Shown piece after piece: positions 430-19,911 of a DNA stretch of 25,115 nt. This stretch comes from a virus, in the IMG/VR virus record IMGVR_UViG_3300038307_000284, positions 1 through 25,115 of that record; one strand, given 5' to 3'. Positions within the stretch are counted from its first letter, which is position 1, and every line of letters begins with the position of its first letter. The notes beneath the pieces are model-generated. The model did no database searches. It had not been told where the DNA came from and worked only from the letters and a program-made list of their open reading frames with translations. The translations under genes were made by a program, and so were the position numbers.

Positions 430-738
430 TCCTCGAAGTTAACTATTCTCCCGTAGGGGCACAGGCACGAATGGCCTGCTCAACCTTGCCTTAGTTCGTC
501 TCCTTTCTGGACTTTGGCTTAACCCATCCGAGTGGTTCCGGACGACGAGCTCACTCTCGTCGGGGTGGTTGAGTGCCTCTGCGGGTTTCCTTTCCTCCAC
601 CGTAAGCCTTCCCGTGTATAGCTTTCTTTCGAGCCCCGCTGGTCGGGGTGTTTGGGTGTTTGGCTTTGTTGGGGGGAACTGGTGTGGCGGGGCTTAAGGA
701 GCTGGGCGTTTGTTTGTGGGGAAAGTTTTTTGTGGGGG
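430..738. other. Non-coding stretch before the first repeated promoter
   Basis: I see no supportable gene here. The stretch holds a copy of the composite intergenic repeat (591-648) with a GC hairpin, then an inverted GCGGGGCT at 687-694 that mirrors AGCCCCGC at 632-639. A T- and G-rich tract leads into the promoter at 739. Antisense open frames over it are proline- and threonine-rich and look like by-products of composition. Confidence 0.6.
591..648 (+). repeat. Composite intergenic repeat, copy 1, with hairpin
   Basis: TTTCCTCCACCGTAAGCC is followed by GAGCCCCGC. The core folds as CCCCG (634-638), loop CTGGT, CGGGG (644-648), with a T-rich tail, so it may also act as a terminator. Related copies start at 1191, 2619, 4871, 5411 and 8091. 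Confidence 0.75.
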
Positions 739-768
739 TTGCTGTTTGCACCTTATTGCCCCCAGAAT
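739..768 (+). promoter_or_regulatory. Repeated promoter, copy 1
   Basis: The -35 is TTGCTG, the spacer is 18 bases and contains CCTTATTGCC, and the -10 is CAGAAT. Seven bases after the -10 comes ACG where the sister copy at 3176 has ATG (GGAGCCACG against GGAGCCATG). The leaderless start appears lost here; the gene starts at 809 behind a ribosome binding site. Confidence 0.8.
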
Positions 769-808
769 GGAGCCACGAACAATAAACCAACAACCAAAGG
801 ACCAGAAC

Positions 809-1009
809 ATGAGTGACCAAACACTAATCATCCATCCGGGCACGGGAACCTACTTCCTAAAAGAGGAATCGTTTGAACTGAACGCCTCCACCGTCCCTGC
901 CGACCTATGGGACGAGTTTACCGAAGCCAGCAACTACGGCGACATCTCATCCGACCTACTTCACCGTCTGGGCGCAGTCACCACCGGGCATCAAGGAGAA
1001 AACCAATGA
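809..1009 (+). CDS. Small acidic hypothetical protein (66 aa)
   Basis: The product begins MSDQTLIIHPGTGTYFL and is acidic with no membrane segment. I chose the ATG at 809 because AAAGGA precedes it by seven bases and the promoter at 739-768 reads into it. A 13-codon frame from an ACG at the transcription start ends in a TGA that overlaps this ATG. That is like the true mini-ORFs at 8783 and 9979. The gene ends in an ATGA overlap with a zinc-ribbon gene, so the two form one unit closed by the terminator at 1153. Confidence 0.75.
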   Translation: MSDQTLIIHPGTGTYFLKEESFELNASTVPADLWDEFTEASNYGDISSDLLHRLGAVTTGHQGENQ

Positions 1010-1140
1010 GCGTTGACGAATACTCCTGTGACCATTGTGGAACTAACCACAACATGGGCAACGGAAGCCTCAACGTCAAATACTTAGACGACGACCGGGT
1101 ATGCCACGACTGCTGGGAGTCTCACAGTGAGAGCAACTAA
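1006..1140 (+). CDS. Zinc-ribbon microprotein (44 aa)
   Basis: Two CxxC knuckles, CDHC at residues 8-11 and CHDC near residues 34-37, enclose about 22 residues, as in a treble-clef or zinc-ribbon fold that would bind one Zn(II). The protein is short and acidic outside the knuckles. It overlaps the previous stop by four bases and is followed at once by a strong terminator. A 44-residue protein at 22659 has the same layout and the same VCHDC second knuckle, so they may be distant paralogues. The function is unknown; protein or nucleic-acid binding is the usual role for this fold. Confidence 0.8.
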   Translation: MSVDEYSCDHCGTNHNMGNGSLNVKYLDDDRVCHDCWESHSESN

Positions 1141-1152
1141 CTAATGCGATGA

Positions 1153-1180
1153 CCTCCGACCTTCGGGTCGGGGGTTTTTC
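1153..1180 (+). terminator. Rho-independent terminator
   Basis: CCTCCGACC, loop TTCG, GGTCGGGGG and then TTTTT form a nine-pair stem with one G-T wobble and a tetraloop. It closes the unit 739-1140. Confidence 0.9.
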
Positions 1181-1190
1181 CGCGTTTCGA

Positions 1191-1268
1191 AGCCTATCCG
1201 CCACCGTAAGCTTAAGCGATGCGTCCCGTCTTCAATAAATAAAATACGAAATGCGGGGCCCCAACATC
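1191..1268 (+). repeat. Composite intergenic repeat, copy 2
   Basis: GCCTATCCGCCACCGTAAGC and TTAAGCG are followed 35 bases later by GCGGGGCCCCAACATCC (1252-1268). The second part is identical over 17 bases to 10518-10534, which is the 3' end of the dioxygenase gene on the other strand. Confidence 0.75.
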
Positions 1269-1312
1269 CTACCAAATGTACCGAGGCATGGCGCGAGTCG
1301 CCGGAAAAAAAC

Positions 1313-1321
1313 TTATCCACA
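1313..1321 (+). promoter_or_regulatory. DnaA box upstream of promoter copy 2
   Basis: A perfect TTATCCACA ends four bases before the -35 element of the promoter at 1326. The same four-base gap occurs at 2757/2762. Confidence 0.7.
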
Positions 1322-1325
1322 GGGG

Positions 1326-1355
1326 TTGCTGTTTACACCTTATAGCCCCCAGAAT
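1326..1355 (+). promoter_or_regulatory. Repeated promoter, copy 2 (leaderless)
   Basis: TTGCTG, 18 bases including CCTTATAGCC, then CAGAAT. The ATG of the next gene begins seven bases after the -10, at the expected transcription start. Confidence 0.85.
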
Positions 1356-1361
1356 GATGTC

Positions 1362-1688
1362 ATGAACCAAACACAGATAACCCAAGCCCTAGCCACCCTC
1401 CGGATTCCTCGGAAAGGGGGACACATAGACATCGTCAAAGTTGGCGACCGCCACCACGGCATGGTCGTGTTGACAGACCACGGAACCTCCTCCTGCGTTG
1501 ATGAAATCACCGTCTTTGAGACAACGTGCGTCGTTAACTGGGGAGGCACCCTTTACCTTTACTCCATGAAAGATGCTGCTCGCACTTTGGGCGAGTTCGT
1601 GCTGACCTTGTCTCTTGGCAAAACTGCCAACTGGATTAAGAAGAACTGCACCGAAGTGACCCCGATGGGTACGATTTCCCCGAGTTAG
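1362..1688 (+). CDS. Hypothetical protein (108 aa), shortened paralogue of 2798-3157
   Basis: The product starts MNQTQITQALATLRIPRKGG and aligns along almost its whole length with the protein at 2798: the shared blocks are IPRKGGHI, LTDHGTSSCVD, VNWGG and ALGEFVLTLSLGKTANWIK or close variants. There is no signal peptide or known domain; the pattern suggests a compact beta-rich protein. The start lies at the expected transcription start, so the mRNA should be leaderless. The C-terminus is altered: DNA similarity to the paralogue continues to about 1725 (GGCGGGTCGCA, CGGTGTAAATAAAA) but in another frame. A frameshift has therefore replaced the last residues by an early stop. Confidence 0.8.
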   Translation: MNQTQITQALATLRIPRKGGHIDIVKVGDRHHGMVVLTDHGTSSCVDEITVFETTCVVNWGGTLYLYSMKDAARTLGEFVLTLSLGKTANWIKKNCTEVTPMGTISPS

Positions 1689-1741
1689 GGGTAACTCGGG
1701 GGCGGGTCGCAGCGTCGGTGTAAATAAAAGCTCCACCGGCG

Positions 1742-1771
1742 TTGCGGCTTGCACCTTATAGCCCCCATAAT
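1742..1771 (+). promoter_or_regulatory. Repeated promoter, copy 3 (leadered)
   Basis: TTGCGG, 18 bases with CCTTATAGCC, then CATAAT. No ATG lies near the start point; the gene begins at 1804 after a ribosome binding site. Confidence 0.85.
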
Positions 1772-1803
1772 GGGGGAAGAGCCAACCACCACAAAAGGAA
1801 ACC

Positions 1804-2019
1804 ATGAAACCGCACCAAAAATACATCGTCACCGCCCACAACCCAGACACCGGCGAAGCCGAATGGGAGGCATTTAGCGGACGCAACGCCCTTGACGCCG
1901 CCCAATACCGTGCAGCGGGATGGGCAGAAACCTACTCGCATGTTTTCATTCGTGAATGCAGCGAAGTTATCCACTCCACCATTGACAACGCCGACCGGCG
2001 ACTGCTCAACCCACGATAA
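1804..2019 (+). CDS. Small hypothetical protein (71 aa), beta-helix layout
   Basis: The product begins MKPHQKYIVTAHNPDTGEAE: a first strand, a turn, a second strand and then a helix (ALDAAQYRAAGWAETYSH). This resembles the short DpnD/PcfM-like folds seen elsewhere in the window, but the similarity is only in layout. AAAAGGAAACC precedes the ATG, and nearly the same bases precede the next gene (AAAGGAAACCATGAAACC), so the start regions seem duplicated. It lies eight bases before the DUF2958 gene, in the same unit. Confidence 0.7.
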   Translation: MKPHQKYIVTAHNPDTGEAEWEAFSGRNALDAAQYRAAGWAETYSHVFIRECSEVIHSTIDNADRRLLNPR

Positions 2020-2027
2020 AGGAAACC

Positions 2028-2381
2028 ATGAAACCATTAACCGAACTAGCTGGTCGCAACCAGCTAATCGCCAACCACAAAACCAACCACGCATCCCGAA
2101 TGCTTGACGGCAGCGTCACCGATTTCTCTCCCGTCGTCAAACTATTCGTCTGCGTCGGCGGGTCGGCCACTTGGCTACTCACCGAACTCGACCCAGACAC
2201 CAACGAAGCGTTTGGTTTGTGCGACCTCGGCCACGGCTACCCAGAGATCGGTTACGTCGACATCACCGGCCTCGTCGAGTCACTCGGATGGCGTTTGGAG
2301 CGTGACCGCTGGTTCACCCCAAAGAAAACACTCAGCGGGTACGCCCAAGACGCTCGCAACGCCCAGAAGATCACGGCGTAG
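2028..2381 (+). CDS. DUF2958 family protein
   Basis: The core VVKLFVCVGGSATWLLTELD, then FGLCDLG, EIGYVDI and LERDRWFTP, follows the order of conserved blocks in DUF2958, a family frequent on phages and plasmids with no assigned reaction. At 117 residues the length is normal. The N-terminal helix (LTELAGRNQLIANH) also fits. The ATG has AAAGGAAACC before it and lies in the unit driven from 1742. There is no membrane segment, so it is probably cytoplasmic. The family call rests on motif order by eye; a profile search with DUF2958 would settle it. Confidence 0.8.
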   Translation: MKPLTELAGRNQLIANHKTNHASRMLDGSVTDFSPVVKLFVCVGGSATWLLTELDPDTNEAFGLCDLGHGYPEIGYVDITGLVESLGWRLERDRWFTPKKTLSGYAQDARNAQKITA

Positions 2382-2383
2382 TT

Positions 2384-2578
2384 ATGCCAGAATACTATGT
2401 AGAAATCGTGGACACCTACTCCCTATGTGTAGAGATTGAAGCCGGGTCAGAAGATGAAGCCCGCTCTATCGCCGAAGACATGTGGGGTCAAACCGATGAC
2501 CGGGAGCGCGAAGTGCTGTTAGAGGGTGACGTATGGGAAGCGCGTCCAGAGGTAACAATCGTCAATCCTTGGAAATAA
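2384..2578 (+). CDS. DpnD/PcfM-like small acidic protein (64 aa)
   Basis: YYVEIVDTYSLCVEIEAGS and EDEARSIAEDMW give two strands followed by a helix that starts at an acidic EDEA, as in the DpnD/PcfM family of phage and plasmid microproteins. The pI must be very low. The ATG is two bases after the DUF2958 stop and has no ribosome binding site of its own, so it probably depends on coupling. It is the last gene of the unit from 1742. Similar proteins are at 3376 and 20931 and an apparently interrupted one is at 4830. Confidence 0.7.
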   Translation: MPEYYVEIVDTYSLCVEIEAGSEDEARSIAEDMWGQTDDREREVLLEGDVWEARPEVTIVNPWK

Positions 2579-2618
2579 GCAGAAATGGTTTTGGGCGACC
2601 GGGTACAGATTTACACGA

Positions 2619-2670
2619 GCCTATCCGCCACCGTAAGGGTAAGCGCGTGTTCCTTGGGGTTGGGGCCCCG
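2619..2670 (+). repeat. Composite intergenic repeat, copy 3
   Basis: GCCTATCCGCCACCGTAAGG and GTAAGCG, then GGGGCCCCGC after about 14 bases. This matches copies 2 and 5 in using GGGGCCCCG as the core. Confidence 0.75.
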
Positions 2671-2717
2671 CTCTTGTAGCTTCGCCGCGTTTTTTGTTTC
2701 CGAGCGGCTCCCATAAG

Positions 2718-2757
2718 TTATCCACAGGTTATTCACAGATGTAAAAACTTATCCACA
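2718..2757 (+). promoter_or_regulatory. Cluster of three DnaA boxes
   Basis: TTATCCACA at 2718, TTATTCACA (one mismatch) at 2729 and TTATCCACA at 2749 lie 11 and 20 bases apart on one strand. The last box ends four bases before the -35 at 2762. Confidence 0.75.
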
Positions 2758-2761
2758 GAGG

Positions 2762-2791
2762 TTGTTGCTTGTACCTTATTGCCCCCATAAT
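2762..2791 (+). promoter_or_regulatory. Repeated promoter, copy 4 (leaderless)
   Basis: TTGTTG, 18 bases with CCTTATTGCC, CATAAT. ATG follows after six bases (2798). Confidence 0.87.
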
Positions 2792-2797
2792 GACGAC

Positions 2798-3157
2798 ATG
2801 ACCCAAACCCCGATAACCCAAACCCCAGCCACCCTTCAAATCCCACGGAAGGGGGGACACATAGAAATCGCCAAAGTTGAAGCGACACGACTGGACTGCG
2901 AATACATTTCGCTGACAGACCACGGAACCTCTTCCTGCGTTGACGCAATCTACGTCTTTGAGATTTCATGTATCGTCAACTGGGGGGGCAAGATGTACGC
3001 CTACGCCATGACAGACCCCGCTCGGGCTTTGGGCGAGTTCGTGCTGACCCTGTCCCTCGGCAAAACCGCTAACTGGATTAAGGAAAACTGTACCGAGGTT
3101 TCGGTATGGGATTTTGAACTAGACAACGGGCGTTGGCGGGTCGCAACCTCGGTGTAA
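2798..3157 (+). CDS. Hypothetical protein (119 aa), full-length paralogue of 1362-1688
   Basis: It starts MTQTPITQTPATLQIPRKGG and keeps the same blocks as the copy at 1362 (LTDHGTSSCVD, VNWGG, GEFVLTLSLGKTANWIK). It adds an intact C-terminus (WDFELDNGRWRVATSV), which shows the likely ancestral length. The ATG is at the expected transcription start, giving a leaderless message, and three DnaA boxes lie upstream. Two conserved cysteines (in SSCVD and ISCIV) could pair or bind metal. The function is unknown. Promoter and gene together look like a duplicated module. Confidence 0.8.
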   Translation: MTQTPITQTPATLQIPRKGGHIEIAKVEATRLDCEYISLTDHGTSSCVDAIYVFEISCIVNWGGKMYAYAMTDPARALGEFVLTLSLGKTANWIKENCTEVSVWDFELDNGRWRVATSV

Positions 3158-3175
3158 ATAAAACCTTCACCGAGG

Positions 3176-3205
3176 TTGTTGCTTGTACCTTATTGCCCCC
3201 AGAAT
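3176..3205 (+). promoter_or_regulatory. Repeated promoter, copy 5 (leaderless)
   Basis: TTGTTG, 18 bases with CCTTATTGCC, CAGAAT. ATG follows after six bases at 3212. Confidence 0.87.
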
Positions 3206-3211
3206 GGAGCC

Positions 3212-3376
3212 ATGAACCAAACACAGATAACCCAAACCGAATGCGAAGATTGCGACCAATACATGAACGACTGTGAATGCGACAGCAGATACGCCGCTTT
3301 CGTAGGTGGCCTCCTCGCTGGTCACTCACCCACCGATTTCTTGGGGGATTTTTTGAATCCTGAGCGTGACATCTAA
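3212..3376 (+). CDS. Cysteine-rich microprotein (54 aa)
   Basis: The first eight residues, MNQTQITQ, equal those of the protein at 1362 although the rest differs, so the repeated cassette extends into coding sequence. After it come ECEDCDQYMNDCECD, with four cysteines in a short acidic stretch that could bind one metal ion, and a hydrophobic segment (FVGGLLAGHS). The start is leaderless. The stop overlaps the next ATG (TAATG). No family is recognised. Confidence 0.75.
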   Translation: MNQTQITQTECEDCDQYMNDCECDSRYAAFVGGLLAGHSPTDFLGDFLNPERDI

Positions 3377-3570
3377 TGCCCACCGACGACAACACGAGCA
3401 ACCTAACCAAGCACTACGTCACGGTAGAAGAAACCATAACCACCCGCTACATGGTCTACGCCTCATCGGCAGACGACGCACGGGAAAACTACGAGGTCAA
3501 CTACGAAAGCGAAGAAACGGAACACGGAGACATCGTAATCGTGAGCATTACCGACAGCGTCACCCAATAA
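3376..3570 (+). CDS. DpnD/PcfM-like small acidic protein (64 aa)
   Basis: After a polar start, KHYVTVEETITTRYMVYASS forms two strands and ADDARENYEVNYESEE an acidic helix, then HGDIVIVSITD a last strand. The layout parallels the protein at 2384. The ATG overlaps the previous TAA, with no separate ribosome binding site. It ends the unit that starts at 3176, before a hairpin at 3589. The function is unknown; family membership is by pattern only. Confidence 0.7.
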   Translation: MPTDDNTSNLTKHYVTVEETITTRYMVYASSADDARENYEVNYESEETEHGDIVIVSITDSVTQ

Positions 3571-3588
3571 TCCTTCCCCCTCATCGGG

Positions 3589-3620
3589 AATCCTCCACTT
3601 TAAACGGTGGGGGATTTCTG
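3589..3620 (+). terminator. Probable terminator
   Basis: AATCCTCCAC, an eight-base loop and GTGGGGGATT pair along ten positions with one wobble, followed by a short T-rich tail. GAGCCCCGC follows at 3637. Confidence 0.65.
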
Positions 3621-3681
3621 CGTACATGAGCCCTTCGAGCCCCGCCGTTCCCGTAGCTGCGAAAACAAAACCCACACGACG

Positions 3682-3711
3682 TTGCGTATTGTTCCTTATT
3701 GCCTGTAAAGT
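3682..3711 (+). promoter_or_regulatory. Repeated promoter, copy 6 (leaderless)
   Basis: TTGCGT, 18 bases with CCTTATTGCC, TAAAGT. ATG follows after seven bases at 3719. Confidence 0.87.
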
Positions 3712-3718
3712 TATTTTC

Positions 3719-4219
3719 ATGACCAACAACACATTCATCAAAACCGTCACCGCAGGACCACGCGGCTTTCGAGCAGTCGTGGACTTGGGTGGTGGACCAT
3801 CCACTACAGTCGCAGCTTTCAAGAAGTGCGACTACCTCGGGCGAGCCGCCTACATCGGCTGGTACCCCACGGGAGTAAACAAGGGACGATGGGTCCAGTC
3901 AAACATTGAACAACCATCTGGATCCATCGCAATCCCCGCCGAGGCACAAAACGCATTCGGTAATACAAAACCAGAAACCCAAACCCAAACTCAAACCAAA
4001 ACCGTAATCAACGAAATCCGAAGGGACGGTCAACGCATTCTGCGCAGCGGGGCTAACGTGCGCGTCCAGCTCAAGCGTTCCAAGGGTACGAAGCGTGACG
4101 ACGGATACGTTGTTGAATGTTACGACGACAATACTGTCAAGGTGTTCCTTAATGGGCTGGGGGAGAGCGTTGTCCCCGTGGATGAGTGGGTTGGTGGCCG
4201 CTCAGGGACGACGAAATAA
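3719..4219 (+). CDS. Two-part hypothetical protein (166 aa)
   Basis: The N-terminal half (1-80, MTNNTFIKTVTAGPRGFRAV) is rich in glycine and aromatic residues. A linker ETQTQTQTKT follows near residues 86-95. The C-terminal part contains SGANVRVQLKRSKGTKRDDG, then YVVECYDDNTVKVFL and PVDEWV, the alternating strand pattern of a small SH3- or KOW-like barrel. Such folds often contact RNA, DNA or peptides, but no specific family is claimed. The start codon is at the predicted transcription start, so the message is leaderless. The gene is alone in its unit and ends 14 bases before promoter copy 7. Confidence 0.75.
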   Translation: MTNNTFIKTVTAGPRGFRAVVDLGGGPSTTVAAFKKCDYLGRAAYIGWYPTGVNKGRWVQSNIEQPSGSIAIPAEAQNAFGNTKPETQTQTQTKTVINEIRRDGQRILRSGANVRVQLKRSKGTKRDDGYVVECYDDNTVKVFLNGLGESVVPVDEWVGGRSGTTK

Positions 4220-4233
4220 ATCCTGCAGCGAGG

Positions 4234-4263
4234 TTGCGTCTTGTTGCTTATAGCCCGTAAGAT
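4234..4263 (+). promoter_or_regulatory. Repeated promoter, copy 7 (leadered)
   Basis: TTGCGT, 18 bases with GCTTATAGCC, TAAGAT. GAGGAC after the -10 matches the copy at 14716, but here ACC stands where that copy has ATG. Confidence 0.87.
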
Positions 4264-4289
4264 GAGGACACCCTAGAGAAAGAGAAAAA

Positions 4290-4496
4290 ATGCTAAACAC
4301 CGCAGACGAAGCAAAACTACACATCATGTACGGCAAATGCGACACCGATGCCCTACAGAAACGCCTCCACCACATGGAGACACTCGTAGCAGAGGCCACC
4401 GCAGAAATCGCCTCCCACCGTGCGATGCTTGTCTCGCTAGAGGCAATACGGCAAATATACACCGACGAAATGGCATGGTTCGCAGCCAAGGTCTAG
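4290..4496 (+). CDS. Small helical hypothetical protein (68 aa)
   Basis: The product begins MLNTADEAKLHIMYGKCDTD and continues with two long helices (ALQKRLHHMETLVAEATAEI, HRAMLVSLEAIRQIY), a likely helical hairpin or coiled coil. GAGAAAGAG precedes the ATG. It is the first gene of the unit from 4234 and is followed after 29 bases by 4526. No family is recognised. Confidence 0.75.
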   Translation: MLNTADEAKLHIMYGKCDTDALQKRLHHMETLVAEATAEIASHRAMLVSLEAIRQIYTDEMAWFAAKV

Positions 4497-4525
4497 CGGA
4501 AAGCGAAACCAACCAAGGAGAAAAA

Positions 4526-4774
4526 GTGTTAATAAGCCAAGGGATAATAGGCGGAGTTGTCGGAACCGGACACCCTGAACAAAACATAACGATTGACGGC
4601 CAGACCCAGACCTTACGGGCATGGGTCGCTGAGTTCAACGACCTTCGAGCATCGTTTAACGGGTCAGATTTCGTGCCTTACGATTGCGACGAGGTTACAC
4701 GGCACGATTTGGCCTTGGAGTTCGCAGCCGAAGCCTACGAAGCGTGGGACGGCAGAGGGCTTATAGAACTCTAA
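4526..4774 (+). CDS. Small acidic hypothetical protein (82 aa), GTG start
   Basis: I chose the GTG at 4526 because AAGGAG lies five bases upstream; the open frame further upstream is in the antisense-like frame of the previous gene. The product reads VLISQGIIGGVVGTGHPEQN, then ITIDGQTQTLRAWVAEF, and ends with an acidic helix (HDLALEFAAEAYEAWDGRG). No known domain is seen. It shares the promoter at 4234 with the gene before it. Confidence 0.72.
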   Translation: MLISQGIIGGVVGTGHPEQNITIDGQTQTLRAWVAEFNDLRASFNGSDFVPYDCDEVTRHDLALEFAAEAYEAWDGRGLIEL

Positions 4775-4870
4775 GCAGCGAGAGCGGGGCTGAGGACGAA
4801 GCAAACCAACCAACAAAGGAAACAGCACCATGAAGTACACGGTAGAAGTGTCAGAAACCAGAGCAGCGGC

Positions 4871-4926
4871 TTCCTCCACCGCATGCTTAAGCGCAACCCT
4901 TGAGCCCCGCTGGTGTGGTGACCAGC
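4871..4926 (+). repeat. Composite intergenic repeat, copy 4
   Basis: TTCCTCCACCGCATGCTTAA then GCG, followed after a few bases by GAGCCCCGC and the GCTGGT...ACCAGC hairpin. This copy lies inside the open frame at 4830. Confidence 0.75.
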
Positions 4927-4935
4927 TATTTTTTT
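4909..4935 (+). terminator. Rho-independent terminator
   Basis: GCTGGT, loop GTGGTG, ACCAGC, then TATTTTTTT. The right arm and T-run (GACCAGCTATTTTTTT) recur without a left arm at 5464. Confidence 0.85.
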
Positions 4936-5000
4936 GAGTTTCCGTGGCGGGGGGGGGCGGTTGGCTCGGCGAGTGGGGTGCGTCAAAGAGGGGCCGGAGG

Positions 5001-5030
5001 TTGTGCCTTGTTCCTTATTGCCTGTAGAGT
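5001..5030 (+). promoter_or_regulatory. Repeated promoter, copy 8 (leadered)
   Basis: TTGTGC, 18 bases with CCTTATTGCC, TAGAGT. The gene starts at 5061 behind AAGGAGAAACGAAA. Confidence 0.85.
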
Positions 5031-5060
5031 GACCCAAAAAGACAACAAGGAGAAACGAAA

Positions 5061-5363
5061 ATGGGCAAATGGACAGACTTGAACGAGCGGCTTGAAAGCG
5101 GCGGTTTGGTTGAATGGGTCAAGGGAGGCGACTTGTTGCCCTACGGCGGGTCAGTCACCTTGGAGGACTTGTTTGGAGCGGACAAAGTGAACGCTCAGCT
5201 CAGCGACGAGTTCGGCGACACGCCTTATTCGGCCCCACCAGTTGACCGCAAAACAGGCATCTGCGGAGGCGGTGACGCTTGGCCGCATTGCTGCCGGGGT
5301 CACGGCATCAAAGATTTCGTCATGTGGAAATCGTTTGACGAGCAAGACGCGGAAAAACGCTAA
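5061..5363 (+). CDS. Hypothetical protein (100 aa) with CH-rich C-terminal half
   Basis: It starts MGKWTDLNERLESGGLVEWV and has a central acidic region (LEDLFGADKVNAQLSDEFGD). CGGGDAWPHCCRGHGIKDF follows near residues 68-86; its three cysteines and two histidines could bind zinc. AAGGAG is placed well before the ATG. It is alone in its unit; the 3' side is composite repeat copy 5. No family is recognised. Confidence 0.75.
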   Translation: MGKWTDLNERLESGGLVEWVKGGDLLPYGGSVTLEDLFGADKVNAQLSDEFGDTPYSAPPVDRKTGICGGGDAWPHCCRGHGIKDFVMWKSFDEQDAEKR

Positions 5364-5410
5364 CGGTCGGTTGGGTCCGCTGCCGAACGACGCAGGATGA
5401 AGTCTGCGAA

Positions 5411-5456
5411 GCCTATCCCCCACCGTATGCTTAAGCGCAACACTGGGGCCCCGTTA
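5411..5456 (+). repeat. Composite intergenic repeat, copy 5
   Basis: GCCTATCCCCCACCGTATGC and TTAAGCG, then GGGGCCCCG after about eight bases. Confidence 0.75.
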
Positions 5457-5464
5457 TTTAATTG

Positions 5465-5540
5465 ACCAGCTATTTTTTTTGCCACCAGCTATTTTTTTCG
5501 CTATTCTTTTCGCTATTTTTTCTAAACCAGCTATTTTCCG
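5465..5540 (+). repeat. T-run repeat array (CCAGCTATTTTTT units)
   Basis: Five degenerate units follow each other: ACCAGCTATTTTTTTT, ACCAGCTATTTTTTT, CGCTATTCTTTT, CGCTATTTTTT and ACCAGCTATTTT. The first matches the right arm of the terminator at 4909, so this looks like a decayed, multiplied terminator end. It lies in the gene-free stretch 5364-5720. Confidence 0.75.
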
Positions 5541-5573
5541 GTTGTGGATTATCGCGAGAAACTTGACCAAACA

Positions 5574-5629
5574 CGGGGCTCGGGGTGAGCTCGGAGCTCG
5601 GCTGCCAGCGAGTCCGTGCGTGAGCCCCG
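5574..5629. repeat. Inverted GAGCCCC pair
   Basis: CGGGGCTC (5574-5581) and GAGCCCCG (5622-5629) are exact inverted repeats around 40 bases. GAGCTCGGAGCTCGG lies between them, and the right arm can also pair locally with GGGGC at 5635. Confidence 0.65.
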
Positions 5630-5659
5630 CTCGTGGGGCGCAAGGATTTGAGTCACGGG

Positions 5660-5689
5660 TTGCGTAGTGTTGCTTATTGCCTATAGGTT
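5660..5689 (+). promoter_or_regulatory. Repeated promoter, copy 9 (leadered)
   Basis: TTGCGT, 18 bases with GCTTATTGCC, TAGGTT. A very strong ribosome binding site (AAGGGAGGTGA) follows. Confidence 0.85.
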
Positions 5690-5720
5690 GCAACCAACTA
5701 CTACGAAGGGAGGTGAAAAT

Positions 5721-6122
5721 ATGATGTATAACTATCCAACGGTTCCCGGCTTCCTCGCCGATCTCCCACGCTTCGCGGAGGAGGGTTGCGACGAGGTTGG
5801 CCTCGCGGGCATGGCGTACGCTCTTGCGTACGAAGTCTGCGACGGGTGCGACGGCTCGGGTACGACCACTTTTGGGTGGCACCGTTCCGAAGCCGCCGCG
5901 TTCACCGCGGACGACCTCGACGAGATGGGTTACGAGGGGCGCGAAGAACTCGCCTCTGGTGCCTACGATCGTGCGTGTCCAACGTGCGAAGGGTTGCGTG
6001 TGATTCAGGTCTTTGACGCTGATTGCACGAACCCAGCGTTGATTGCTGCGTTCAGGGAAAACGTTGCTTCCATTGCGGAAGCCAACGCGATCCACGCTGC
6101 CGAAGCGCGTATGGGAGCCTAA
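5721..6122 (+). CDS. Protein with DnaJ-type zinc knuckles (133 aa)
   Basis: CDGCDGSG and CPTCEG, 59 residues apart, are two knuckles of the CxxCxGxG type that bind zinc in the cysteine-rich domain of DnaJ and related small proteins. There is no J domain. The rest is acidic, with helices around the knuckles (LADLPRFAEEGCDEVGLAGM; FRENVASIAEANAIHAAEAR). The start is one of two adjacent ATGs after AAGGGAGGTGAAAAT. It is more GC-rich in its codons than its neighbours. It is alone in its unit, closed by the terminator at 6147. A chaperone-like or RNA-contact role is only a guess. Confidence 0.8.
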   Translation: MMYNYPTVPGFLADLPRFAEEGCDEVGLAGMAYALAYEVCDGCDGSGTTTFGWHRSEAAAFTADDLDEMGYEGREELASGAYDRACPTCEGLRVIQVFDADCTNPALIAAFRENVASIAEANAIHAAEARMGA

Positions 6123-6146
6123 CCTCCTCCCCTGTCCCATTCACCT

Positions 6147-6178
6147 AGTCCCCCTGCTCCGGCGGGGGGACTTTCTCT
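6147..6178 (+). terminator. Rho-independent terminator
   Basis: AGTCCCCC, a GC-rich loop, GGGGGACT and then a T-rich tail (TTCTCTT). The arms match perfectly over eight bases. Confidence 0.9.
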
Positions 6179-6501
6179 TGCCCAAACGCTCCCACGGCTG
6201 ATGCGCCCATCCCCACGCACCCCCACACGCACCCCCCATTTGCCCGCTGTGGGCTTCCGACCCCAAACCCTAGCCAAACACCCGCCAGCACACACGGACG
6301 GCTTAAAACGGCTTAAAACGGCGCAAAGCCCGTAGCACACGGTGCCCCCACGCGAGTCCCGCTTTCGGCGGAGGTGGGCAGCGCACCCCCACTAACGCAA
6401 AAACGGGGCCGAAAGAGCTTTACTGCCTCTCGGAAAACAAGAAGTCAACACCCAAAAATAAGAAAAACACTCAAAACTCAAACCCCTTAATAAAGCTCCT
6501 C

Positions 6502-6556
6502 GAGCCCCGCAAAAGCCGTCGATAACCGCGTCTCTCGGAAACCCGAAGGCGGGGCT
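6502..6556. repeat. Inverted GAGCCCCGC pair
   Basis: AGCCCCGC (6503-6510) and GCGGGGCT (6549-6556) are exact inverted repeats, and AGCTCCTC precedes the left arm as in other copies. Confidence 0.65.
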
Positions 6557-6676
6557 AACGAGAGCTCCAGCTCCTCTCGGAAACATGGCTGCCCAAGCCC
6601 CCAGTCCTCCCAAAAGGGAAAAAGTTTATTTTTTCGGGAGTTGCGGTTCTCTTTTCTTTGTGTTACATAGCTCTTC

Positions 6677-6734
6677 GAGCCCCGCTATCTGTCCCAGCTC
6701 GAGCCTTGGGCGGGCGAAGCGCAGCGGCGGGGCT
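6677..6734. repeat. Inverted GAGCCCCGC pair
   Basis: AGCCCCGC (6678-6685) and GCGGGGCT (6727-6734) pair exactly; CCCAG and CTTGGG between them can also pair. Confidence 0.65.
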
Positions 6735-6788
6735 GAGGGGTTCTTTCTCCTCGGAGCTCTGGGAGGGTTCTTTTTTTTGGGGAACAGG

Positions 6789-6818
6789 TTGCGTCTTGTT
6801 GCTTATTGCCTATAAGAT
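6789..6818 (+). promoter_or_regulatory. Repeated promoter, copy 10 (leadered)
   Basis: TTGCGT, 18 bases, TAAGAT. CTTAT-TGCCT-ATAAG forms a perfect 5-5-5 dyad across the spacer and -10, a possible operator. Confidence 0.88.
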
Positions 6819-6855
6819 GCCCCTACAAGGAAAAACGACGAGAGGAATGAATAAA

Positions 6856-7005
6856 ATGAGCGGATGCGGACACACCAGATCAACAAGAACAGAGTGCGAC
6901 GGACAATGGGAAATCTGGCGTTGCGACGGATGTCAGGCGCAGAAAATGACCAAGTGCCGTTCAGAGATTTTCGGCGAGTGTTGGTGCGAAGGTGATGACG
7001 AATGA
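6856..7005 (+). CDS. Cysteine-rich zinc-binding microprotein (49 aa)
   Basis: It starts MSGCGHTRSTRTECDG and holds seven cysteines: CGH, EC, CDGC, KC and CWC. They are arranged as two or more knuckles around WEIWRCDGCQAQK. An ATG at 6847 is in frame, but GAGAGG touches it, so I prefer 6856, which has a workable distance to that site. The stop overlaps the next ATG (ATGA). It resembles host Cys-rich phage peptides in composition only. Confidence 0.75.
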   Translation: MSGCGHTRSTRTECDGQWEIWRCDGCQAQKMTKCRSEIFGECWCEGDDE

Positions 7006-7139
7006 GTAGTCAGTACCGTGGGTGCCAAGGTCCGGGTCTTTGTGAAGAGGAAGCGTGGGTGATGATTTGGAGCAAATGGTATTGCGGAACTCATGCCACG
7101 TTTTACCCACAAAAGGACGAAGCCCTGCCAACAAGGTAG
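7002..7139 (+). CDS. Small Cys/Trp-rich protein (45 aa)
   Basis: It starts MSSQYRGCQGPGLCEEEAWV and continues with WYCGTHATFY, giving C-x5-C and CxxH, a possible zinc site. Its ATG overlaps the previous stop by four bases and there is no separate ribosome binding site, so the two are coupled. It is too short for routine gene callers but has the same codon use as its partner. After it about 310 bases carry no gene. Confidence 0.65.
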   Translation: MSSQYRGCQGPGLCEEEAWVMIWSKWYCGTHATFYPQKDEALPTR

Positions 7140-7146
7140 GCGAATC

Positions 7147-7290
7147 GGAGGGGGACATAGCAGGGGTCGCGCCCCATGCGAGTCCGTGACAGGATGGTAT
7201 CTGTCACTCAGTCACCACGACTGGGTAAAGCGGCTCTCCCCCGATGTCTAGGTGCTGGCGAATACCACGCCAGCGGGGATAACGGTCAGC
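7147..7290 (+). ncRNA. Possible structured RNA (three to four hairpins)
   Basis: GGGG-TCGCG-CCCC (7163-7175), GTGACAG and CTGTCAC (7186-7207), ACTCAGTC and GACTGGGT (7206-7226) and GCTGGCG and CGCCAGC (7254-7274) are perfect or nearly perfect stems in a row. The second and third share bases and so exclude each other, like a switch. No tRNA or known riboswitch motif is recognised. There is no promoter of the repeated family directly before it, so it might be the 3' part of the 6789 transcript. Confidence 0.35.
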
Positions 7291-7320
7291 ATCTTTTGTA
7301 TGAGGCTTAGATAGATGAGA

Positions 7321-7404
7321 GTGAGCCCCGCAATTGTTGGAGCTGCGGGTATGGGTCCGTTGAGTTTCCTGTGGTCAAGGCGCAAATGGCATTGCGGGGC
7401 CCAC
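7321..7404. repeat. Long inverted GAGCCCCGC pair
   Basis: GTGAGCCCCGCAAT (7321-7334) and ATTGCGGGGCCCAC (7391-7404) match at 13 of 14 positions as inverted repeats, around 56 bases. This is the best-preserved pair of the family. Confidence 0.75.
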
Positions 7405-7455
7405 GCTCCGATTTATCAGAAGCTCGGCCGTCTTGATACGAATAATGAATCAAGG

Positions 7456-7485
7456 TTGCGTATTGCTGCTTATTGCCTATAAGGT
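7456..7485 (+). promoter_or_regulatory. Repeated promoter, copy 11 (leadered)
   Basis: TTGCGT, 18 bases, TAAGGT, with the CTTAT-TGCCT-ATAAG dyad. Confidence 0.87.
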
Positions 7486-7528
7486 GTCCCTGCGAGAGAA
7501 AATCAACCGCCAACCAAGGGGAACCAAA

Positions 7529-7681
7529 ATGCGACTACTACTTTTCATGTTAGTTCTCCCTCCAGCGTCTATCGGGTTCAGCCTTCTAGTTGCTGGAACC
7601 ATCACTGGAGGACTACCCTCGCTAGATAAATGGCGCAGTGTAGGCAACGGGGAGAACCCCCACCCAACCACCAACCACTAA
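7529..7681 (+). CDS. Small membrane protein (50 aa)
   Basis: It starts MRLLLFMLVLPPASIGFSLL and continues VAGTITGGLP: one long hydrophobic segment of about 30 residues with a proline break, then a polar tail (WRSVGNGENPHPTTNH). This is a membrane peptide or an uncleaved export signal. AAGGGGAACC precedes the ATG. The stop overlaps an ATG of the next frame (TAATG). No family is recognised; other single-pass peptides lie at 8818, 9352, 12721 and 14958. Confidence 0.75.
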   Translation: MRLLLFMLVLPPASIGFSLLVAGTITGGLPSLDKWRSVGNGENPHPTTNH

Positions 7682-7692
7682 TGGAGAACCAA

Positions 7693-7968
7693 ATGACACC
7701 AAGTGAACTGATTGAGGTAGCGACCGCTGCCAGTAAAATAATGAATGCTCCGTGGCCGGTAGTTGACCGCCACGACGACCGCCGAGAGTTCCACTGCGAA
7801 CACGGCACCTACACCGGGCATCCCAGCGGAGCCGACCTGATGTGTCAATGGTGCGAAGACGGGATACCTGCCGACGAATGGTCAGTTATGATGCGCGAAG
7901 CGCAACTGACCGACGCACTCAATACGCTCATCAACGCTGCGGTCATCTCGGCAATGGATTTTGCGTGA
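7693..7968 (+). CDS. Zinc-finger-like hypothetical protein (91 aa)
   Basis: CEHGTYTGHPSGADLMCQWC near residues 36-55 gives CxxH followed by CxxC, a likely zinc site. On either side are an N-terminal helix (SELIEVATAASKIM) and a C-terminal helix (AQLTDALNTLINAAVISAM). An ATG at 7681 overlaps the previous stop, but GGAG lies seven bases before 7693, so I take 7693. It is the second gene of the unit from 7456. Confidence 0.75.
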   Translation: MTPSELIEVATAASKIMNAPWPVVDRHDDRREFHCEHGTYTGHPSGADLMCQWCEDGIPADEWSVMMREAQLTDALNTLINAAVISAMDFA

Positions 7969-7991
7969 TGCGATGCGTGTGTGGCGACTGA

Positions 7992-8030
7992 CCCGAGGAA
8001 CAGAAGTGAGCCGAGGGTAAGCCTCGGGCT
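7992..8030 (+). terminator. Possible terminator or attenuator hairpins
   Basis: CCCGAGG, then CCGAGG-GTAAG-CCTCGG: the downstream arm can pair with either upstream arm. There is no T-run, so factor-independent termination is uncertain. Confidence 0.4.
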
Positions 8031-8090
8031 GGGATGTCGGGACACGGGGCTGCCGTGTGTTTGTGAGTCTGCCGTCGTTTGTCAGCTCCC

Positions 8091-8140
8091 TTTCCTCCAC
8101 CGTTAGCTTAAGCGGCTCTTCGAGCTTCGAGCCCCGTGGA
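8091..8140 (+). repeat. Composite intergenic repeat, copy 6
   Basis: TTTCCTCCACCGTTAGCTTA and AGCGG, then CTCTTCGAGCTTCGAGCCCC. The GAGCTTC/GAGCCCC doubling is unique to this copy. Confidence 0.75.
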
Positions 8141-8195: not shown

Positions 8196-8243
8196 TTATC
8201 CACAGGGTGGAAAGTTATCCACAGGTTTGGGGAGTTATCCACA
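8196..8243 (+). promoter_or_regulatory. Three perfect DnaA boxes
   Basis: TTATCCACA begins at 8196, 8215 and 8235, at 19- and 20-base steps on one strand (about two helical turns). The last box ends 14 bases before the -35 at 8258, one turn further than the 4-base gap at 1313 and 2749. Confidence 0.8.
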
Positions 8244-8257
8244 GATTTCAAAAAAGG

Positions 8258-8287
8258 TTGCGTATTGTTGCTTATTGCTTATAAGAT
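8258..8287 (+). promoter_or_regulatory. Repeated promoter, copy 12 (leaderless or leadered)
   Basis: TTGCGT, 18 bases with GCTTATTGCT, TAAGAT. An ATG lies six bases after the -10 and a second one follows a strong ribosome binding site. Confidence 0.88.
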
Positions 8288-8491: not shown

Positions 8492-8550
8492 CCCACGGGG
8501 TCGGCCCACGGGTCGGCCCCACGGGGTCGGCCCCACGGGGTCGGCCCCAC
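8491..8550 (+). repeat. Short tandem repeat GCCCCACGGGGTCG
   Basis: Four units of 13, 12, 14 and 14 bases plus a partial fifth. Each contains CCC-ACG-GGG or CCCC-ACG-GGG, so every unit can fold into a small hairpin. Confidence 0.85.
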
Positions 8551-8569
8551 CACGGCGGGCCACTCGCTA

Positions 8570-15919: not shown

Positions 15920-16167
15920 TGAACTACCACCTAAAAACAATCACCTACACCCAATTCCGGCACTCCGCCGACGAAGAATGGGACGACACGAAACCTTTGG
16001 CGTTAAGCCTAGCCACATACGGGTCATTCATAATGAGGCTCCTCCGTCAAAAAAACCCCAAACTGGCCGACAACCTCCACCTAACAGAACACGACGTAAC
16101 CAACAAAAATCGTGTCCCATACAGAACATGGGCATACATTGATGCCAACTGGGATCTCAACCCTTGA
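15919..16167 (+). CDS. Hypothetical protein (82 aa)
   Basis: It starts MNYHLKTITYTQFRHSADEE and continues with LALSLATYGSFIMRLLRQKN, probably a helix, and RTWAYIDANWDLNP. It starts in a TAATG overlap and ends 16 bases before the helicase start. GAGCCCCGC (16166-16174) lies in that gap, so the repeat element also sits between genes of one operon. No family is recognised. Confidence 0.7.
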   Translation: MNYHLKTITYTQFRHSADEEWDDTKPLALSLATYGSFIMRLLRQKNPKLADNLHLTEHDVTNKNRVPYRTWAYIDANWDLNP

Positions 16168-16183
16168 GCCCCGCCAGAACACA

Positions 16184-18091
16184 ATGCTATACTTAGAGGA
16201 TGACCAACTTGTTTTCAATTTTCCGTACGATTCTGCGCAGGTCGCCGAAATCAAGCAAATCCCCGGAGCGAGATGGAACCGCACGAATCGTGTATGGACG
16301 CTGCCGGTTTCCTCCCTCGAACATGCCCGAAAGTTCGCAAAAACCTACGGATACGAAACCACCAACGAAGTCCTAACACTCACCCTTCCCTCTCACAAAA
16401 ACGACGACGAACGAGTATCGCTAGACGGAGAATTCATTTCGTTAGCATTCCCGTACGACCCGGTGAAAGTCCGTTCCGTCAAACAAATCCCCGGCGTAAC
16501 ATGGGACGGCGGCACGATGGCATGGAAAGCCCCACTCGCCTCAATAGAGGAAGCAACAAAATGGGCGACCATCTTCTCTATCCCAATAGACGCCGAAGTG
16601 GAAGCCAAAGGAAACGAATCCACCTCAGAACTCAACGAACTATACGAAGCTAGCCGAGCAACCGACGCAGAACTAACCGTCCCCGGGTTACAAGCAACAA
16701 TGTTCCCATACCAACGCGCTGGCGTGGCCTACGCAATGAAAGCAAAACGGTGCTTCATCGCAGACGCAATGGGCTTAGGGAAGACACTTGAGGGCTTATG
16801 TTCGCTAGAAATGCTTCACGCCTACCCGGCAGTCATCGTTTGCCCCCCGAATCTGGTGCTCAACTGGGCCAACGAATACAAACAGTTCCTACCGCACCGC
16901 AACGTAGCGACCGTCACCAACCGCAAAGAGTTCCCCAAAGACTACGAAGTCGTTGTCGTCGGATACAGCAACCTGAACGCATGGCAAAAGGAACTCTCAG
17001 GTCACAACGGCTACATTTTTGACGAATCCCAGTACGTCAAGACTGGCACCTCTCAGCGGACAAAGGCTGCGAAGAAGATTGTGCGTTCTTCCCCCGAGGC
17101 CCCGGTGTTGATGTTGACTGGCACTCCGATCACTAATCGTCCTGCCGAGTATGCCAGTCAGTTGGAGATTTTGGGGCAGATCGATAAGTTTGGTGGGAAG
17201 TGGGGTTTTTACCGACGCTTCTGTGACGCCCATAAGGACAAGTGGGGGCAATGGCATTTAGAGGGTCATTCTCATTTGGATGAGCTTAATGACAGGTTGA
17301 GATCCACTTGTTATATTCGGCGAACAAAAGAAGAAGTTTTGAAGGATTTGCCTCCCGTTCTTCATGATCCGATGGTTGTCGACGGTACCCCTCTTGCTAT
17401 GAAGGAGTACAAGAAAGCTGAGTCGGACATTGTCAAGTACCTTATTGAGAGGGCTAAAGAAATAGCAAAAGAATTAGGCGAACCCATCGGCTCGGCAGCC
17501 GTCCGGGCCAAGTTCAAAGCCGAAGCAAACCAGCACCTAGTAAAACTATCTGTTTTGAGAAGGCTCGCAGCGAAAGCCAAAATGGCTCAGGTGGAGGAAT
17601 GGATCGATGCCCACATCGGTGAGGGGAAAAAGGTTGTTGTCGCTGCCCACCACAGGGACATCGTTGACCATTTGGCAGAACGCCACGGTGGGCTGAAAAT
17701 ACAGGGCGGCATGAAGGTAGAAGAAGTGGAGGCAGCGAAACACCGGTTCCAAACCCTTTCCGCCGAAGAAGCCCCCGTAATGGTGCTCAGCATACAGGCA
17801 GCAAAAACCGGGCACACTTTAACTGCTGCTCAAAACGTTTTGTTCGTGGAGCTACCGTGGACACCAGCGGACGTTGATCAGACGTACTCGCGGTGTCACC
17901 GGATTGGGCAAACGGGGTCGGTGACGGTAACGTACATGCTGACGAACGACACGGTAGATGAGGAAATCTACAGCCTTATCAACGATAAACGCCGCGTTGT
18001 TGATCAGGCAACGGAGGGGGGAGACATGATCGTCGCCGCCGAATCGGTAGCGATACGCATGATCAGCACCCTACTAGACGGGTTGTCTTGA
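16184..18091 (+). CDS. SNF2-family helicase with two HARP-like repeats (635 aa)
   Basis: Motif I is ADAMGLGKT (about residue 196), motif II is IFDESQ (about 278; DESQ replaces DEAH), motif III is LTGTPITNRPAEY and motif VI is QTYSRCHRIGQTG (about 566). These are standard SNF2 ATPase motifs. Residues 1-65 and 77-140 are two copies of a small domain (LVFNFPYDSAQVAEIKQIPG and ISLAFPYDPVKVRSVKQIPG, each followed by a Trp strand) resembling the HARP domain of the annealing helicase SMARCAL1. That suggests fork reversal or strand annealing during phage replication or recombination. I start at 16184, where the HARP repeat begins; upstream codons overlap the previous gene. Codon use shifts to T-ending codons near 17,040-17,460. 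Confidence 0.9.
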   Translation: MLYLEDDQLVFNFPYDSAQVAEIKQIPGARWNRTNRVWTLPVSSLEHARKFAKTYGYETTNEVLTLTLPSHKNDDERVSLDGEFISLAFPYDPVKVRSVKQIPGVTWDGGTMAWKAPLASIEEATKWATIFSIPIDAEVEAKGNESTSELNELYEASRATDAELTVPGLQATMFPYQRAGVAYAMKAKRCFIADAMGLGKTLEGLCSLEMLHAYPAVIVCPPNLVLNWANEYKQFLPHRNVATVTNRKEFPKDYEVVVVGYSNLNAWQKELSGHNGYIFDESQYVKTGTSQRTKAAKKIVRSSPEAPVLMLTGTPITNRPAEYASQLEILGQIDKFGGKWGFYRRFCDAHKDKWGQWHLEGHSHLDELNDRLRSTCYIRRTKEEVLKDLPPVLHDPMVVDGTPLAMKEYKKAESDIVKYLIERAKEIAKELGEPIGSAAVRAKFKAEANQHLVKLSVLRRLAAKAKMAQVEEWIDAHIGEGKKVVVAAHHRDIVDHLAERHGGLKIQGGMKVEEVEAAKHRFQTLSAEEAPVMVLSIQAAKTGHTLTAAQNVLFVELPWTPADVDQTYSRCHRIGQTGSVTVTYMLTNDTVDEEIYSLINDKRRVVDQATEGGDMIVAAESVAIRMISTLLDGLS

Positions 18092-18147
18092 TTTCTTCTT
18101 CAAAGTGGGCTAAAGTTATGAGAGTTACTCAACGACATGGAGCAATA

Positions 18148-18894
18148 ATGATTACACGGAAAGAATGGGGCGCAAAGAAACGCCGATATAAGACCTCTCA
18201 GAAGAGCTATCGTCCCGAAGTTTATATTCACCACGGAGGGACTCCTCTTGGCTCGAACACCGAGGAAGGGGAAGCCGCAGCGTTGCGGTCTTACCAGCAG
18301 TACCACATGAAGACTCGCCTGTGGTCGGACATTGCTTACTCGTTTGCTGTCGCTCCGGAATCGGGTCGTGTTTACGAGTTGCGTGGCTGGGGAAACCGCC
18401 CCGGTGCGACTCGCAACCACAACAAGTCTTCTTACGCGATTGTTATCATCGGCGACACTTCCCGCAACATCGTGTCGGATGCTTGCGTCGAAGCGGTACG
18501 TCATTTGATCATAGCGGGCCAAAGCGCAGGCCACATTTCTCATTCCGTGAAAGTCCTTGGACATCGCGACGCTAAGGCAACGGCTTGTCCGGGAGACTCG
18601 GCGTATGCGCGACTCAACGAGATGGACCCACAGTGGGCTCCCCTGAAACCCGTTAAGAAGAAACCAAAAAAGAAACCAAAGAAGCAAGCTCCGGCGTACA
18701 AGTTGGTGCGGTTGCGTAAACCGTATCAAAGGGGAGCAATAGTTAAATGGATTCAAGACACCACTAAAGCACCCGTCGACGGCGTATACGGGCCGAAGTC
18801 AGCTGCCGCCGTTAAAAGGTGGCAAAAAAGCCACAAACTTGTCGCCGATGGTGTTGTAGGCAGGAAAACCTACAAGAAAATGGCATCGCAGTGA
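18148..18894 (+). CDS. Endolysin: N-acetylmuramoyl-L-alanine amidase with peptidoglycan-binding domain (248 aa)
   Basis: Residues 5-155 form an Amidase_2/PGRP domain: YIHHGG (H28), SDIAYSF (Y64) and GHRDAKATACPGD (H139, K143, C147) supply the zinc ligands and the catalytic Tyr and Lys of the T7-lysozyme type. It cuts between muramic acid and the stem peptide. A lysine-rich linker (KKKPKKKPKK) leads to a PG_binding_1 repeat (GAIVKWIQDTTKAPVDGVYG, KRWQKSHKLVADGVVG). There is no signal peptide, so it needs a holin or another release path. GGAG lies five bases before the ATG at 18148; a TTG at 18088 or an ATG at 18118 would extend the N-terminus. It directly follows the helicase. Confidence 0.92.
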   Translation: MITRKEWGAKKRRYKTSQKSYRPEVYIHHGGTPLGSNTEEGEAAALRSYQQYHMKTRLWSDIAYSFAVAPESGRVYELRGWGNRPGATRNHNKSSYAIVIIGDTSRNIVSDACVEAVRHLIIAGQSAGHISHSVKVLGHRDAKATACPGDSAYARLNEMDPQWAPLKPVKKKPKKKPKKQAPAYKLVRLRKPYQRGAIVKWIQDTTKAPVDGVYGPKSAAAVKRWQKSHKLVADGVVGRKTYKKMASQ

Positions 18895-19040
18895 AAAAGG
18901 TGCGCAGGAAAACGCAGAAACGCAACGTTAACCAAGCGAAACTTAAAGCCGCCAAAAACAGTAGGCGGGCGAAGCGGAAAAGCGACAAAGCGAAAGCATC
19001 GTTGAAGCATTTCGAGAAACTAGTCAGGGGACGATTTTGA
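18891..19040 (+). CDS. Extremely basic small protein, GTG start (49 aa)
   Basis: VKKVRRKTQKRNVNQAKLKA, then AKNSRRAKRKSDKAKASLKH: about half of the residues are Lys or Arg. The GTG overlaps the endolysin stop (GTGA). It is likely helical and nucleic-acid binding. Next come terminators, so it is the last gene of the long plus-strand run. No family is recognised. Confidence 0.7.
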   Translation: MKKVRRKTQKRNVNQAKLKAAKNSRRAKRKSDKAKASLKHFEKLVRGRF

Positions 19041-19108
19041 TTAAATAGGCCACTGTGTTTGCTTTTCCTTCAGTGGGGAAGTAAACTACGGACTGTCCGG
19101 TGCCCCCT

Positions 19109-19129
19109 ACTCCCCCCCTTTCGGGGGTG
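19109..19129 (+). terminator. GC hairpin after the lysis operon
   Basis: CCCCCC-TTTC-GGGGG. There is no T-run; it stands before the stronger hairpin at 19142. Confidence 0.5.
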
Positions 19130-19141
19130 CCCGATAAAGGA

Positions 19142-19185
19142 ATCCCGCTCTTGAGTCAATACTTGAGGGCGGGGTTCTCTTTTTG
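19142..19185. terminator. Terminator between convergent operons
   Basis: ATCCCGCTC and GAGGGCGGGGT pair with one bulge around a 14-base loop, then TTCTCTTTTT on the plus strand. It overlaps the 3' end of the minus-strand gene and probably serves the plus strand; the minus side has a shorter TTCCTTTA tail. Confidence 0.7.
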
Positions 19186-19428
19186 CCATTGTTTCAAGGA
19201 GATTCGACGGGGGGCGTCGCCGCATTTGTATTGAGCTGCGGGGTGTGTGGAGATGACGCTACAAGTAGAGCATTCGGCAACAATAAGGGATGGGTCTTCT
19301 ACTTCGTTGAACCGTTTAGAAAGACGCACGATTTTCCATTTGTGGGAGTGCTCGTTTTCAAGAATTTCATCTTGGGTCCCACTAAAAAGAGGGGTTACCT
19401 TAATGACCTTGTCGCGGAAGGCACTCAC
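19156..19428 (-). CDS. Putative zinc-binding protein, GTG start (90 aa)
   Basis: VSAFRDKVIKVTPLF starts at a GTG that overlaps the previous stop (GTGA). HSHKWKIVRLSKRF is followed by AECSTCSVISTHPAAQYKCG: a CxxC plus a later CG and nearby His, as in small phage zinc ribbons. The C-terminus is basic (APRRISLKQWQKE). It is the last gene of the minus-strand operon. No family is recognised with certainty. Confidence 0.75.
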   Translation of the reverse strand: MSAFRDKVIKVTPLFSGTQDEILENEHSHKWKIVRLSKRFNEVEDPSLIVAECSTCSVISTHPAAQYKCGDAPRRISLKQWQKENPALKY

Positions 19429-19856: not shown

Positions 19857-19911
19857 GAGGTCCCTCTTTGTTCGATTGTGCACCATTTATAGTGTGGCAT
19901 ATGGGCGGTTA

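Follow-up and report, generated by a model that had tools for sequence, protein, structure and literature searches.

A conserved intergenic element with a constant strand in a group of uncultured, probably actinobacterial, viruses

The window analysed here is a 25 kb fragment (25,115 nucleotides) of the IMG/VR virus record IMGVR_UViG_3300038307_000284, and its gene content includes an SNF2 helicase, an amidase, a DUF932 protein, an SSB and WhiB proteins. The presence of WhiB points to an actinobacterial host. The best genome-contig matches of the phage SSB, at 47-49% identity, lay in a MAG titled Thermoanaerobacterales and in two Acidimicrobiales MAGs, which is weak evidence on the host, and none of the named phages is similar to the window at the DNA level. 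Between 735 and 11168, a promoter-like sequence, GGTTGCGTATTGTTGCTTATTGCCTATAAGATG, recurs about 15 times in the window, its spacer being conserved; a search with this promoter pattern gave no matches. Several start codons lie a few bases past its -10 element, which suggests near-leaderless mRNAs. Promoter and small gene together are duplicated at 1307-1657 and 2743-3099 (81-84% identical DNA), a cassette duplication. A 14 bp tandem repeat (GGGTCGGCCCCACG) occupies 8510-8561, and the contig end (24300-25115) consists of a CA-rich and then a GT-rich low-complexity stretch with strong strand asymmetry.

Interspersed with these promoters is a composite repeat made up of an upstream element (A) and a downstream core (B) (Table 1). 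Six copies on the same strand had been claimed in the initial annotation, and the claim was borne out: searching with the 18-mer part at up to three mismatches returned five copies, all on the plus strand (at 1201, 2628, 4876, 5420 and 8097; 0.01 expected from dinucleotide shuffles), and the sixth, at 597, has four mismatches. In copy 4 the lead reads CTTCC and the end has diverged. The second core reported behind the 18-mer was likewise recovered in all six copies, as GAGCCCCGC, GGGGCCCC or GAGCCCCGT, 7-37 nt downstream. In the composite this core reads GAGCCCCG(C) or GGGGCCCC and is followed by the repeated promoter, in agreement with the proposal that the composites stand ahead of it. The GCTTAAGC palindrome, regarded at first as a defining part of the repeat, did not hold up, being present in four of the six copies, local to the window and not conserved in relatives. 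A coding origin of the repeat was rejected, the variation, read by eye, not being codon-like. Behind composite copies 4 and 5 (4911-5537) we noted four copies of ACCAGCTATTTT, several of which extend into longer T tracts.

Table 1. Coordinates of the composite repeat copies and associated features in the window
Feature	Positions	Strand	B-core start	Remarks
Composite copy 1	590-639	+	631	A CTTTCCTCCACCGT (590-603), B GAGCCCCGC (631-639)
Composite copy 2	1194-1262	+	1255	A CTATCCGCCACCGT, B GCGGGGCCCC (1253-1262)
Composite copy 3	2621-2670	+	2662	A CTATCCGCCACCGT, B GGGGCCCCG (2662-2670)
Composite copy 4	4869-4910	+	4902	Diverged A GCTTCCTCCACCGC, B GAGCCCCGC (4902-4910)
Composite copy 5	5413-5453	+	5445	A CTATCCCCCACCGT, B GGGGCCCCG (5445-5453)
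Composite copy 6	8090-8136	+	8129	A CTTTCCTCCACCGT, B GAGCCCCG (8129-8136)
DnaA-box-like TTATCCACA	1313-1321	+		Between copy 2 and promoter
DnaA-box-like sequences	2718-2757	+		At 2718 and 2749, relaxed TTATTCACA between; between copy 3 and promoter
Three DnaA-box-like TTATCCACA	8196-8243	+		At 8196, 8215 and 8235; between copy 6 and promoter
Promoter-like repeat	735-768	+		Downstream of copy 1
Promoter-like repeat	1322-1355	+		Downstream of copy 2
Promoter-like repeat	2758-2791	+		Downstream of copy 3
Promoter-like repeat	4997-5030	+		Downstream of copy 4
Promoter-like repeat	5656-5689	+		Downstream of copy 5
Promoter-like repeat	8254-8287	+		Downstream of copy 6
SNF2-type helicase, amidase, DUF932	16112-20934			SNF2 16112-18091 (+), DUF932 19912-20934 (-); conserved module, towards which A points in relatives carrying both

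Relatives for comparison were fetched by way of the DUF932 and SNF2 genes of the window. Genes were called by a hexamer heuristic, and many if not most of the contigs are fragments; G019 and G024, as well as G028 and G030, are near-identical (99.9-100% over the common part), and one of each pair was counted in key statistics. The initial annotation named absence from all relatives as part of what would refute its reading, and 20 further virus records turned out to carry A. There, the 13-mer YTTCCGCCACCGT occurs in 2-10 copies per record, in one small-gene region and on a single strand in each, and a reversed-pattern control had no matches in the same records. The invariant block in relatives is the lead plus CCACCGT, and A can be written as YTTTCCGCCACCGT followed by a loose 3' half, which ends in TTAGAAAC or CTTGAGAAAG in relatives and reads CTTAAGCG in the window. 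When IMG/VR was scanned for the long form of A, 47 stretches were returned; these records were chosen for one A copy, leaving strand, position and neighbours free of selection. The long form was not found in 148 genomes from the class to which an Acidimicrobiales MAG belongs, exact 18-mer forms gave just chance matches within genes in IMG/VR (L003, L020, L021), and a literature search on the core 7-mer yielded nothing relevant. From these comparisons, the repeat appears to be a conserved control element of uncultured actinobacterial viruses with the core CTTTCCGCCACCGT, of whose two-part form, A plus a B of AGYCCCG or GGGGCC(CC) in cis, the window probably holds a diverged version.

The A-bearing phages have a gene order in common, namely an HA-domain gene, the small-gene region with A, SNF2, DUF932 and SSB (some fragments lack parts of it), and their SNF2 and DUF932 proteins are about 56-67% identical to those of the window. 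The HA-domain gene also encodes a sigma-region-4-like helix-turn-helix and has no match among named phages. As to single proteins, just a DUF5872-like protein tracks the presence of A in a comparison that included few A-negative genomes.

Near rightward genes the parts follow each other in a set order: A, then B (AGYCCCG, its complement or GGGGCC, with a peak at +40 to +60 from A), DnaA boxes, which peak at +80 to +150 in these units, and a promoter. Across 16 records, 39 of 73 strict DnaA boxes fell at +60 to +200 of A, an interval that makes up 1.8% of the sequence, compared with 0 of 16 permuted 9-mers. Promoter-like matches were found downstream of 51% of A copies (16% at random), at a median distance of 138 nt. 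The window itself holds eight consensus DnaA boxes TTATCCACA against about 0.2 expected by base count, all on the plus strand and mostly just upstream of repeated promoters (Table 1; the remaining two at 8725 and 9971). DnaA boxes adjoining promoters suggest that host DnaA may tune early transcription or local initiation. Bacterial control regions with DnaA boxes offer a parallel to the boxes lying here between A/B and the promoter, although the known bacterial case is one compact origin and the boxes described here are distributed among numerous promoter units of a single phage region.

The heptamer AGCCCCG is the most over-represented 7-mer in the window (28 against 4.8 expected, z 10.6) and ranks at or near the top for many of the phages, some A-less ones among them. 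In the contigs of 172 and 148 kb, the two largest, about 90-100 kb have none, and its copies cluster, mostly between genes, in the small-gene region. A role as a Chi-like host motif was rejected, as three host-type genomes show no enrichment of AGCCCCG and, in the two largest phage contigs, it keeps to a single region. Many further sites in the window carry GAGCCCCGC on its own and in inverted form, and at 6501-7400 it forms inverted pairs with GCGGGGC, about 50-70 nt apart, like those in G001. In the 148 kb contig G002 (for example L015, loci L043-L044), 27 of 65 AGYCCCG sites make up the loop of a perfect hairpin, and the 27 stems, of 7-17 bp, all differ from one another (1.3% at random); the loops often read GCCCCGT/C, and 11 have a promoter-like repeat (TTTGTCGGYTRGGGGTGGGT) within 45 nt. 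Such hairpins numbered zero in seven other records checked, the window included.

A keeps to one strand. Allowing up to two mismatches, the 21 records (932 kb) have 148 copies on the strand set by the genome axis and 2 on the opposite one, splitting as 81/34/33 against 0/0/2, and the orientation follows HA-SNF2-SSB wherever these genes are present. The strand does not change where genes run leftward: 22 of 112 copies lie between two leftward genes (G029, G031, parts of G025 and G026, and G001). Copies are mostly intergenic (94 of 112), in regions that are for the most part 17-46% noncoding, and 25% have a stop codon within 10 nt upstream, compared with 6% of random positions. The upstream gene's stop codon lies within this distance for 29 of 75 rightward and 10 of 35 leftward cases. 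The kept strand together with stop-codon proximity in both gene directions indicates that A follows neither transcription nor chance, and a site whose strand is constant irrespective of gene direction probably acts on DNA and not on RNA. Among the roles initially suggested, that of a boundary element fits best, A standing where a gene ends, in many cases no more than 10 nt from the stop codon, and ahead of the next promoter.

The same observations bear on readings at the RNA level. A linear element at the 3' end of rightward transcripts, serving as a processing, Rho-type termination or stability site, would be compatible with the C-rich, unstructured sequence of A, with its frequent start 4-10 nt past the stop codon of a rightward gene and with the T runs after some copies in G008. 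These T runs are not specific to the position behind A, however, and in leftward regions A lies on the same genome strand and hence would be antisense there. Folding gave z between -1.0 and +0.5 for the window composites and -0.19 for all A copies compared with -0.50 in the control, and Rfam had no match at E up to 1. We thus consider a linear RNA element unlikely. The processing site initially suggested fares poorly as well, there being no RNA structure at A and a strand tied to the genome axis instead of transcription. An intrinsic terminator or processing hairpin is likewise unlikely, no stable stem-loop having been found at A; pairing of the two halves of A was rejected, as TATCC variants lack compensating changes.

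Two readings invoke movement of DNA. If A were a recombination site delimiting exchangeable gene cassettes, comparable to integron attC sites, its orientation would be fixed regardless of gene direction. In line with this, homology blocks begin or end exactly at A between G022 and G028, with swapped segments (two older switches), and gene neighbours often change across A (82% broken adjacencies), but long gaps without A are about as break-prone (79%), and relatives 94-96% identical are collinear across A, with breaks about 290-650 nt inside the units. No tyrosine or serine recombinase (Phage_integrase, Resolvase) was found in 18 records, many of them fragments. Like attC arrays, A provides direct-repeat boundary sites around variable small-gene units, independent of the orientation of the enclosed gene; unlike them, it comes with no IntI-type recombinase that we could find and no folded hairpin, and recent breaks lie elsewhere. 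Cassette recombination at A is, in our judgement, improbable. Still further down we place the idea that A-B arose by strand-biased insertion of a non-autonomous mobile element, which we regard as very improbable. A-B is multicopy, mostly intergenic and of fixed polarity, as such an element could be, yet diverged phages retain the near-invariant core in a comparable position close to the HA gene, element ends are not evident and flanking breaks in close relatives lie away from A. The suggestion of a non-autonomous element in the initial annotation consequently found no support, given this strongly conserved core, its restriction to one region, the element ends not seen and the integrase not found. 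Taken together, the missing RNA structure, the integrase not found and the recent rearrangement breaks away from A argue against a transposon end, a terminator, a processing site and a cassette-recombination site.

The main rival explanation is that A, with B, binds a phage regulator and, placed between small transcription units, serves as a polar roadblock, operator or insulator, similar to a stoperator. An asymmetric 13-base motif that recurs several times in a genome, behind genes and ahead of promoters, would suit this, and A lies about 95-120 nt upstream of the gene for the HA domain and sigma-region-4-like helix in G008, G016, G025, G026 and G027, which could fit autoregulation. In G002, where A is absent save for one in-gene match, B sits in hairpins near promoter-like repeats instead. 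The stoperators of cluster A mycobacteriophages are likewise 13-bp multicopy asymmetric repressor sites, predominantly in one orientation, but their orientation is that of transcription, and from phage to phage they diverge together with the repressor (PMC6550527), whereas A follows the genome axis, keeping its strand in leftward regions, and is near-invariant. Some copies in G029 and G031, moreover, are squeezed between genes of the same direction, in gaps that leave hardly enough space for a promoter. A role in prophage immunity is unlikely because of the integrase and resolvase not found in the 18 records. On balance a regulator site seems possible but doubtful to us.

A strand that is fixed along the genome and not by transcription leads one to expect a directional process at the DNA level. 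Known strand-exclusive phage motifs are localized nicks, which favours nicking or another polar DNA event over an operator. We therefore lean, tentatively and with slightly less than even confidence, towards A being an asymmetric, strand-specific DNA site, a nick or a polar block, within the modular early control region of a group of uncultured actinophages. The reader of A would be a sequence-specific protein of phage or host origin that recognizes it as DNA and acts directionally along the genome; the event could be a localized nick, or else a polymerase or fork could be made to stop or start in a polar manner, and placement at gene boundaries would spare coding sequence. Nicking proper, within this strand-specific reading, is a tentative choice that we hold with rather low confidence. 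It is similarly uncertain, and to be counted as a minority view, that A is the recognition site of an undescribed process directed along the genome axis (nicking or a polar replication or transcription block), built together with DnaA boxes into early control regions. The ordered arrangement of A, B, DnaA boxes and promoter would also suit ordinary transcription control. Beyond the DUF5872-like presence correlate, no candidate nickase or A binder was identified.

The closest known counterparts of A are the nick motifs of phages tf and Rembedalsseter (TACTRTGMC, WACTRTGAC), of phiKMV-like phages (CGACxxxxxCCTA/CTCCGG) and of T5. Phage tf has 14 nick sites on its top strand (PMC3517423) and Rembedalsseter 13 on one strand (PMC11780129). 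Like these motifs, A is short, asymmetric, multicopy, restricted to one strand and conserved in related phages, and in relatives of Rembedalsseter the motif is independent of gene direction, as is A. The published motifs are spread over the genome, also within genes, and their nicks have been mapped; A, in contrast, is mostly intergenic (94 of 112 copies), confined to one region and paired with B, DnaA boxes and a promoter. It is some 50 years since strand-exclusive motifs became known from nicked phage genomes, and their function has been called enigmatic (PMC11780129). Compared with them, A would constitute a larger and well-anchored example, linked with DnaA boxes and promoters and shared, in conserved form, by many phages, which makes the role of strand-exclusive sites testable by strand-specific sequencing and gives an entry point, at the sequence level, to the early gene control of uncultured actinophages.
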